Below, in pieces: positions 96 through 1,906 of a stretch of DNA of 52,606 nucleotides. The DNA is from Acidithiobacillus sp. (lineage in GTDB: Bacteria; Pseudomonadota; Gammaproteobacteria; Acidithiobacillales; Acidithiobacillaceae), in assembly GCF_027322205.1 (NCBI RefSeq), contig NZ_DAHVHY010000006.1:1-52606 (forward strand), written 5' to 3'. Under the pieces are notes generated by a model that ran no database searches, was not told the origin of the DNA, and worked only from the letters and a program-made list of their open reading frames with translations. The stretch's first letter is position 1. The number at the start of each line of letters is the position of its first letter. The translations under genes and the position numbers were made by a program.

Positions 96-1906
96 ATGGA
101 ATCGGCAAAATCTTTTAATCAAATGCTCGCGGATATCCGTGTGCGCCGGGTTGAACGCCACGAGGAAGCGCGTTACCAGGCACTGATGGCGGAGCATCAT
201 TATCTGGGTGCGCTGCCCAAGATCGGCGAGACGCTGTGGTACGTCGCCACCTGGCAGGATCAGTGGGTGGCGCAGATCAGCATGTCCGGGGCCGCATTGA
301 AATGCGGGGTCCGTGATCGCTGGATCGGCTGGGACTTCCGTTCCCAGTATGGGCGTCTCCGGCTCATCGCCAATAACAGCCGCTTTCTGATTTTGCCTGA
401 CTGGCATCGCCCCAATGTCGGGTCGCGCGTCCTGTCGCTGATTGAGCGGCGTATCGCTGACGACTGGCAGACTCACTTCGGGCATCCCTTATTTCTGCTG
501 GAAACCTTTGTCGACCCAGAGCGCTTTTACGGAGGCGTGTATCGGGCGGCCAACTGGATAGAGCTGGGATTGACCCAAGGCTATCGTCGCACCCCAAGCG
601 GCTACAGCGCCACCGCTGCGTCCCCCAAACGGGTCTTTATCCGGCCTCTGGTCCGTAATCCTCAAGCCCGCCTGACCCACCCGAACTATGCCCACCTGCA
701 ACTCACCGGAGACCCTAACCGTATGCTCAATGCCGATGAAATGCGTTCACTACCGCTCTGCTTCTCGGATATTCCCGACCCCCGTCGGCCGCAAGGGAGA
801 CGGCATCGTTTACCGGTCGTGCTGGGGATCGCGGCGGGGGCCACGCTCTGCGGCATGTCCGGTTACAAGGCCATGGCGGACTGGGCCCAGGGACTGGGGC
901 AACCTGCACGGGAGCGTTTCGGCTGCCGGTGCGAGAATAAACGTTATGTCGTTCCCAGTGAATTTGTGATCCGCGATTGCCTGGTGCGGGTTGAACCGGG
1001 AACACTGGACCGAGCGCTCAGTCTCTGGAATCAATCCTGGGGACAACCGGGGGACAGTGCCTTGGCCATGGATGGCAAAACCATGAAAAACGCCGTCGAC
1101 GAAAAGGGTGCCCAGACTCATATCCTGAGCGCGGTGGGCCACACTTCGCGCACCTGTTATGCCCAAAAAAAGTAGGCACCTTACCCGTAGCCCATAGCGA
1201 TGCGGTCAAACGCACCAATGAGATCGGGATGGCGATTCCCGTACTGGATCGCTGCGATATCGCCGGCAAGGATGTGACTGCAGATGCCCTGCTGACGCAA
1301 CGGGCGCTGGCTACCTACCTGATAGAACAGCAGGCCCATTACCACTTTACCGTGAAGGGAAATCAGCCGACCCTGGAACACGATATCGCCGTACAATTCG
1401 AACATTGTGGTACGCCCGATTTCGTGGAAGTCTCGCCTGCGGATCACGGTCGGATCGAAACCCGCCGGATCTGGTGCAGTACAACCCTCAATGACTACGT
1501 CGACTTCCCCCATGTCGGCCAGACTTTCCGGATAGAGCGGGAATGTATCCAGAAGAAAACCGGCAAGCGCTCCCTGGAAGTGGCATTGGGGATCACCAGT
1601 CGTACTCCGCAGGAGGCTTCACCGCAGCGCCTGCTGGAAGTGAACCGTGGACACTGGGCCATAGAGAGCGTGCATTATCTCATTGACTGGAACTTCAACG
1701 AGGACCGCAGTCGCGTCCGCACCGGCTTCGGCCCGGAAAATCTCACCCGCCTGCGCCGCTTCGCCATCGGCATTCTTAAATCCTTCCAGAAACCCTCTCA
1801 GTCTATCGCAGAAATGATGCGCACCCTCTGCTTCCGTACCCGTCTCGTCTTCGATTATCTGCGCATGACGAAAAACTCGGCGCCCACAATCCCTGGAGGC
1901 GGCTGA
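96..1906 (+). CDS. ISAs1 transposase with N-terminal DUF4338/DruA-like domain, split by a -1 frameshift
   Basis: The first frame (96-1175) encodes 359 residues. About residues 15-190 resemble DUF4338/DruA: conserved IGW, NSRFLILP, LLETFVD and YRAANW motifs are visible. From about residue 210 the ISAs1 N-terminal region follows (FSDIPDPRRPQGRRH) with the first DDE aspartate in AMDGKT. The frame stops at 1173-1175. A -1 shift on the A run just before the stop gives continuous homology (QKKVGTLPVAHSDAVKRTNE) into the second frame, which carries the rest of the DDE domain, including HWAIES and FNEDRSRVRTG, and stops at 1906. The joined product would be about 603 residues. Two readings are possible: programmed frameshifting, or an indel (natural or sequencing) in a homopolymer. 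The family call is strong. The DruA call rests on motif recognition only, and no DruB-E genes are nearby. Confidence 0.85.
1166..1172 (+). other. Candidate -1 ribosomal slippery heptamer
   Basis: A AAA AAG lies in the correct X XXY YYZ phase: the zero-frame codons are CAA AAA AAG followed at once by TAG. This is the same heptamer used by E. coli dnaX. Tandem slippage by one base joins the two transposase frames. I did not see an obvious upstream Shine-Dalgarno-like stimulator or a clear downstream hairpin, so function is inferred. Confidence 0.5.

Follow-up and report, generated by a model that had tools for sequence, protein, structure and literature searches.

A DruA-fused ISAs1 transposase with a conserved A_AAA_AAG slip site, probably expressed by programmed −1 frameshifting

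The window analyzed here, a stretch of 52,606 nucleotides from Acidithiobacillus sp., begins with an insertion sequence (IS) of the ISAs1 family, whose transposase is fused to DruA and divided between two reading frames. The comparison of related elements indicates that expression of this transposase very probably depends on programmed −1 ribosomal frameshifting at the heptamer A_AAA_AAG. The slip site is unchanged in distant relatives; this conservation makes it almost certain that the site is an intrinsic control rather than damage to the gene. The initial annotation had already raised the possibility that the site is programmed, and this interpretation is well supported by comparative genomics.

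Overall organization of the element

The window corresponds to a complete contig (G000:C117), the first base of which is the first base of the IS left end. The features of the element are as follows.

1–1922, + strand: complete IS of the ISAs1 family, with its transposase fused to DruA, 1922 bp
1–14, + strand: left terminal inverted repeat CACGGTAGATTTGT, 13/14 match to the reverse complement of 1909–1922
96–1175, + strand: zero-frame ORF, 359 aa
aa 8–163 of the zero-frame ORF: DruA (PF14236), 76.3 bits versus a gathering score of 27
aa 222–311 of the zero-frame ORF: DDE_Tnp_1_assoc (PF13808), 62 bits
1071–1073, + strand: GAT, putative first catalytic Asp D326, assigned from the conserved DGK in the alignment
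1165–1171, + strand: run of seven A (A7), kept in 23 copies from 19 genomes
1166–1172, + strand: slippery heptamer A_AAA_AAG in zero-frame phase
1173–1175, + strand: zero-frame stop TAG, immediately 3′ of the heptamer
1172–1906, + strand: −1 frame, C-terminal 244 aa of the predicted transframe transposase, rest of the DDE domain (DDE_Tnp_1, PF01609)
1283–1285, + strand: GAT, putative catalytic D397, assigned from conserved columns
1664–1666, + strand: GAG, putative catalytic E524, assigned from conserved columns
1909–1922, − strand: right terminal inverted repeat CACGGTAAATTTGT (as read on the − strand)
Peptide across the junction of the predicted transframe product: ...CYAQKKVGTLPVAH...

The sequence between positions 1160 and 1180 is TGCCCAAAAAAAGTAGGCACC. 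The zero-frame ORF ends with GCC CAA AAA AAG TAG, whereas the −1 frame continues as VGTLPVAHSD... over 244 codons and ends at 1906. As the initial annotation had claimed, the heptamer is in exact slippage phase and is directly followed by a stop codon in the window. The claim that a −1 shift restores continuous ISAs1 homology was also borne out: the joined protein is 603 aa in length and scores 165.1 bits with the NCBIfam ISAs1 model NF033564, the cut-off of which is 70. DruA, DDE_Tnp_1_assoc and DDE_Tnp_1 (Pfam) follow each other in this order along the joined protein. The break falls within the DDE domain; of the two putative catalytic Asp, the first lies before the break and the second after it. 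No solved structure matching the transposase by sequence was found.

Several traits of the ISAs1 family are present, including the match to the curated model, the 14-bp ends with 13 matching positions and, in relatives, the 10-bp target duplications. The single-frame ORF that is usual for ISAs1 is absent; in the window it is split at 1166–1175, and 22 further copies have the same split. Owing to the NF033564 match, we consider the split as a variant feature of ISAs1 more than as a ground for exclusion.

The left flank of the window copy is absent from the contig, so its left target duplication is unreadable; duplications were read in relatives. The same element ends are present at loci L003 and L033, together with 10-bp target duplications. 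The exact coincidence of the contig start with the IS left end points to an assembly that was broken at a repeat; however, no second IS end was found in this assembly, which is 90% complete, and a search of the window's genome for another copy of the element likewise found none. One tRNA-Thr (cgt) gene is located at 2134–2209 on the minus strand, ∼210 bp from the IS right end.

Conservation of the A7 run and the frame split

Relatives were gathered by DNA and protein searches through the genus, order, class and phylum, plus single families; viral contigs and phage records contained none. Since the window's genome has only one copy, the comparison relied on relatives and not on copies in the same genome. 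A7 with the same −1 split was observed in 23 copies in 19 genomes, with identities ranging from 50 to 98%; among the loci spanning the site, it reaches down to about 50–57% protein identity. Conservation of A7G together with the split frame had been named beforehand as the test for programming, and the element passed it strongly. One copy each is present in G000, G016, G012, G397, G399, G400, G401, G402, G403, G408, G470, G474, G628, G481, G486 and G1154; G275 and G440 contain two each, and G277 contains three. Both frames are otherwise open in ∼12 A7 copies from nine genomes. The immediate stop is not universal. In some copies the next codon is TCG, and the zero-frame stop is located several codons later.

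In addition to the 23 copies, G469 carries a C-to-A substitution, by which AAA replaces CAA; this gives eight A and leaves the phase unchanged. Four further loci differ, two with A8 and two with A6. The initial annotation had named A8 or A6 copies with an intact single frame as the observation that would speak against programming; A8 and A6 occurred only in these exceptional copies. G396 has A8, with one in-frame TGA further on; G655 has A8 in a derivative from which DruA is mostly deleted; G398 has A6 in a copy that is incomplete because its contig ends there; and the third copy of G275 has A6 and further breaks. In the G655 derivative (L127, minus strand, about 2785–1480), A8 is in frame and the ISAs1 ORF of ∼400 aa is intact; DruA and the frameshift are thus missing together. 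The G486 copy (L108, near 915) has a short insertion (∼20–30 bp, CCTGTCCTGAGCTTGTCGAAGGG-like) straight after A7G. One fragment in contig C32 of G402 appeared to be single-frame across the site; it was rejected because it is truncated shortly before the site and continues from there into unrelated sequence.

The same A7 and split across relatives rule out a sequencing error or a private indel. G016 and G440 are assembled into one contig each, G277 into two and G275 into seven; as two of the A7 genomes are single contigs, a shared assembly error is unlikely. Runs of seven A/T are not rare in the window, and it is the conservation, not the motif alone, that excludes a chance origin of the heptamer.

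Purifying selection on both frames

Codons of nine divergent elements were aligned, with each half in its own frame. Both frames are otherwise open in eight of them, and the C-terminal frame of the G400 element is shortened. For unsaturated pairs, dN/dS is about 0.09–0.14 in the N-terminal half and about 0.08–0.12 in the C-terminal half; synonymous sites are saturated in most other pairs. Purifying selection acts on both halves.

Leaving out Met and Trp, the alignment contains 204 columns with an invariant residue, only two of which use one codon throughout all nine elements. One is a Glu; the other is the Gln codon CAA that opens the A run. Both codons are in use in the remaining invariant Gln and Lys columns. 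The A run itself is constant in the nine elements because A7 copies were chosen, whereas the wider tally of 23 copies was not so selected. The slip codons are fixed although synonymous sites elsewhere are near saturation.

Mobility of the A7 copies

Perfect 10-bp target duplications surround six A7 copies, which are inserted at different sites.

L003: 10-bp target duplication CTGACAGATG
L033: 10-bp target duplication CGGGGTTAGC
Two G277 copies: 10-bp target duplications CAGGGTTCGG and CTTTCACCGG
G440: 10-bp target duplication CCCTTGTAGC
G474: 10-bp target duplication CTACGTTCTG

In the single-contig genome G440, two A7 copies at separate locations are identical, and two of the G277 copies differ at one position, ambiguous bases aside. 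Taken together, the target duplications and the identical or near-identical copies indicate that the A7 form moved recently. Among the copies located in G440 and G277, there was no A8 or single-frame helper copy.

Proposed mechanism

From the phase, conservation, purifying selection and past mobility observed above, we infer a slip at the heptamer that is ribosomal in nature. Most ribosomes would stop at or shortly past the heptamer, yielding the 359-aa protein with DruA, DDE_Tnp_1_assoc and the first catalytic Asp, which could not be catalytically complete. In a minority of ribosomes, tRNA-Lys would slip back by one base, exchanging its pairing with AAA-AAG for AAA-AAA; GTA GGC would be read next, and the full 603-aa transposase would be produced. 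By analogy with OrfA of the IS3 family, the short product may be regulatory, probably DNA-binding and inhibitory.

Two sequence features expected for −1 frameshifting are present. One X_XXY_YYZ heptamer is in zero-frame phase and is followed by a −1 ORF, and the heptamer and the frame arrangement are kept across divergent homologues under purifying selection. A_AAA_AAG is the natural shift site of dnaX (PMC5009743) and is among the most efficient shift motifs in Escherichia coli (PMC5009743; PMC4066793). Individual folds of 16 sequences revealed no stable or conserved downstream hairpin (z-scores from about −1.5 to +1.3), nor is any Shine-Dalgarno-like stretch evident upstream of the heptamer. 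As no conserved RNA stimulator was found, the slip rate may be low, which would suit a transposase. In E. coli, the best V_VV.A_AA.G heptamers support only about 0.3% frameshifting without a stimulator (PMC4066793).

Alternative explanations

The split could also be an ordinary decay product, in which one base was deleted from an A8 ancestor and a pseudogene was left. The two A8 relatives (G396 and G655) and the other breaks in many relatives would fit such a history; however, the same break recurs at all levels of identity covered by the 23 copies, in halves that are both constrained, and the A7 copies have transposed. The dN/dS values and the target duplications rule out the pseudogene reading, and we regard decay as extremely improbable. 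Alternatively, the C-terminal half could come from independent or reinitiated translation and act with the N-terminal half in trans. Most copies do have an ATG 57 nt downstream of the site. However, the −1-frame residues between the site and this ATG (VG.LP...K.TNEIG) are conserved, with synonymous variation, and G1154 lacks the ATG while both of its frames are open; these residues thus appear to be translated in the −1 frame and to be reached from upstream. There is no start codon at a shared or conserved position upstream of the site in the −1 frame, and two separate proteins would leave the invariant CAA AAA AAG unexplained. We therefore consider this explanation very unlikely, only slightly less so than decay.

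A more serious alternative is transcriptional slippage, in which RNA polymerase adds one A at A7, and the resulting A8 mRNAs are translated without any ribosomal shift. It would give the same products with the same control logic, and sequence alone cannot separate it from ribosomal slippage; A runs can serve both mechanisms. The GeneTack authors prefer transcriptional realignment for transposase families that show both shift directions (PMC3711429), and a DruA-ISAs1 relative within the genus is split in the opposite direction, at T4C5. In the clade of the window element, however, the direction is −1 only. Efficient transcriptional slippage in bacteria has been reported at runs of nine A or T (PMC5009743). 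By contrast, 23 copies here have a run of exactly seven, which in every case closes with the shift-prone Lys pair AAA AAG in phase; polymerase slippage should tolerate other run lengths, such as A10. The length and the phase make slippage of RNA polymerase the less likely mechanism, and we consider it improbable, though clearly less so than decay or separate translation. Programmed −1 ribosomal frameshifting is thus the reading that we prefer.

Origin of the slip site and the related element B

In the tree of joined proteins, the A7 elements form one clade with 100/100 support, with two A8 rows inside it. Its neighbors are the element B group, described below, and a DruA-ISAs1 protein of G262 that is encoded in a single frame. 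About 10 residues directly after the slip site are missing from ordinary ISAs1 relatives and from element B; the slip site is therefore located where a clade-specific segment begins.

Element B is a second DruA-ISAs1 element in congeners, 43% identical to the window element. It is present in G009 (16 copies), G016 (two) and G005 (one); the other loci include L047, L060 and further loci of G009, and L046 of G005.

L062, 1369–3414 (G016): element B, 2046 bp, inverted repeat CAGGGCCCTGTCAACC, 10-bp target duplications

The frame of element B is split by +1 (or −2) at TTTTCCCCC (T4C5), a motif common to the copies read, and the split cuts the DDE domain. In G009 and G016, the copies read share the split motif GATTTTCCCCCTC, which is present also in that of G005. 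Two of the copies checked have 10-bp target duplications, and six G009 copies contain an extra break near residue 209–237. Short stems are located just 5′ of the element B-type motif; because stems of equal size occur by chance in 18–39% of random places, we take them only as a lead. The split of element B may reflect slippage of the kind described for the Roseiflexus IS630 element. In Candidatus Thiodictyon, plasmids pTs485 (L101, 2030–2180) and pTs417 (L102) carry a relative in which the DruA-ISAs1 gene is interrupted at TTTCCCCCC and continues in the +1 frame; its two parts are annotated separately, as an ISAs1 transposase and a hypothetical protein. Elements A (the window element) and B are adjacent in G016 (L003, 1501–4922) in the same orientation, and B starts ∼50 bp past the end of A.

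The +1 split of element B at T4C5 suggests that recoding arose twice in DruA-ISAs1 elements. Tentatively, we envisage one acquisition as −1 at A_AAA_AAG and the other as +1 at T(3-4)C(5-6), where slippage is the probable cause, each cutting the DDE domain and leaving a short DruA protein as the main product. DruA might then be a regulator, the dosage of which relative to the full transposase is under selection; we hold this scenario to be somewhat less probable than its opposite.

Comparison with known systems

Control of transposases by recoding is already known; ISAs1 as its setting appears unreported in the open-access literature. One review from 2016 listed IS1, IS3, IS5 and IS630 as the families using frameshifting (PMC5009743). 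We found no description of frameshifting in ISAs1 in the open-access literature (subscription papers and ISfinder entries lay outside this search). If confirmed, recoding control would extend to another IS family, whose split copies are easily mistaken for pseudogenes or for two genes. DruA, known mainly from a defence system, would gain a second context in which its dosage versus the transposase is measurable.

The Druantia defence system consists of DruA together with other Druantia genes; DruA is here fused to a transposase inside an IS. Usual members of the ISAs1 family share with the window element the NF033564 match and the DDE_Tnp_1_assoc and DDE_Tnp_1 domains. However, they have one ORF of ∼380 aa and lack both DruA and the ∼10-aa segment after the slip site.

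In the IS427 group of the IS5 family, only the fusion of two frames contains the full DDE motif. This group has two overlapping ORFs and one frameshift motif (PMC3281130). Like the window element, its transposase is split over two frames, but it belongs to another IS family and lacks DruA. Transcriptional slippage at T5C5 in the Roseiflexus IS630 element resembles element B, with its +1 split at T4C5 and stems 5′ of the motif; the mechanism is unlike that proposed for the window element, where a −1 shift would occur at an A run. E. coli dnaX uses the same heptamer, A_AAA_AAG. The dnaX shift is stimulated by a Shine-Dalgarno-like sequence and a stem-loop, neither of which is evident in the window element, and it yields the shorter product.

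The IS3 family (IS911 and IS3) and IS1 have an A_AAA_AAG-type heptamer, a short N-terminal product and a transframe transposase in common with our model; A_AAA_AAG or A_AAA_AAA accounts for 72% of IS1/IS3 heptamers (PMC4066793). Compared to these elements, the window element encodes an ISAs1 transposase, is broken inside the DDE domain, carries DruA on the N-terminal product and has no evident downstream stimulator.
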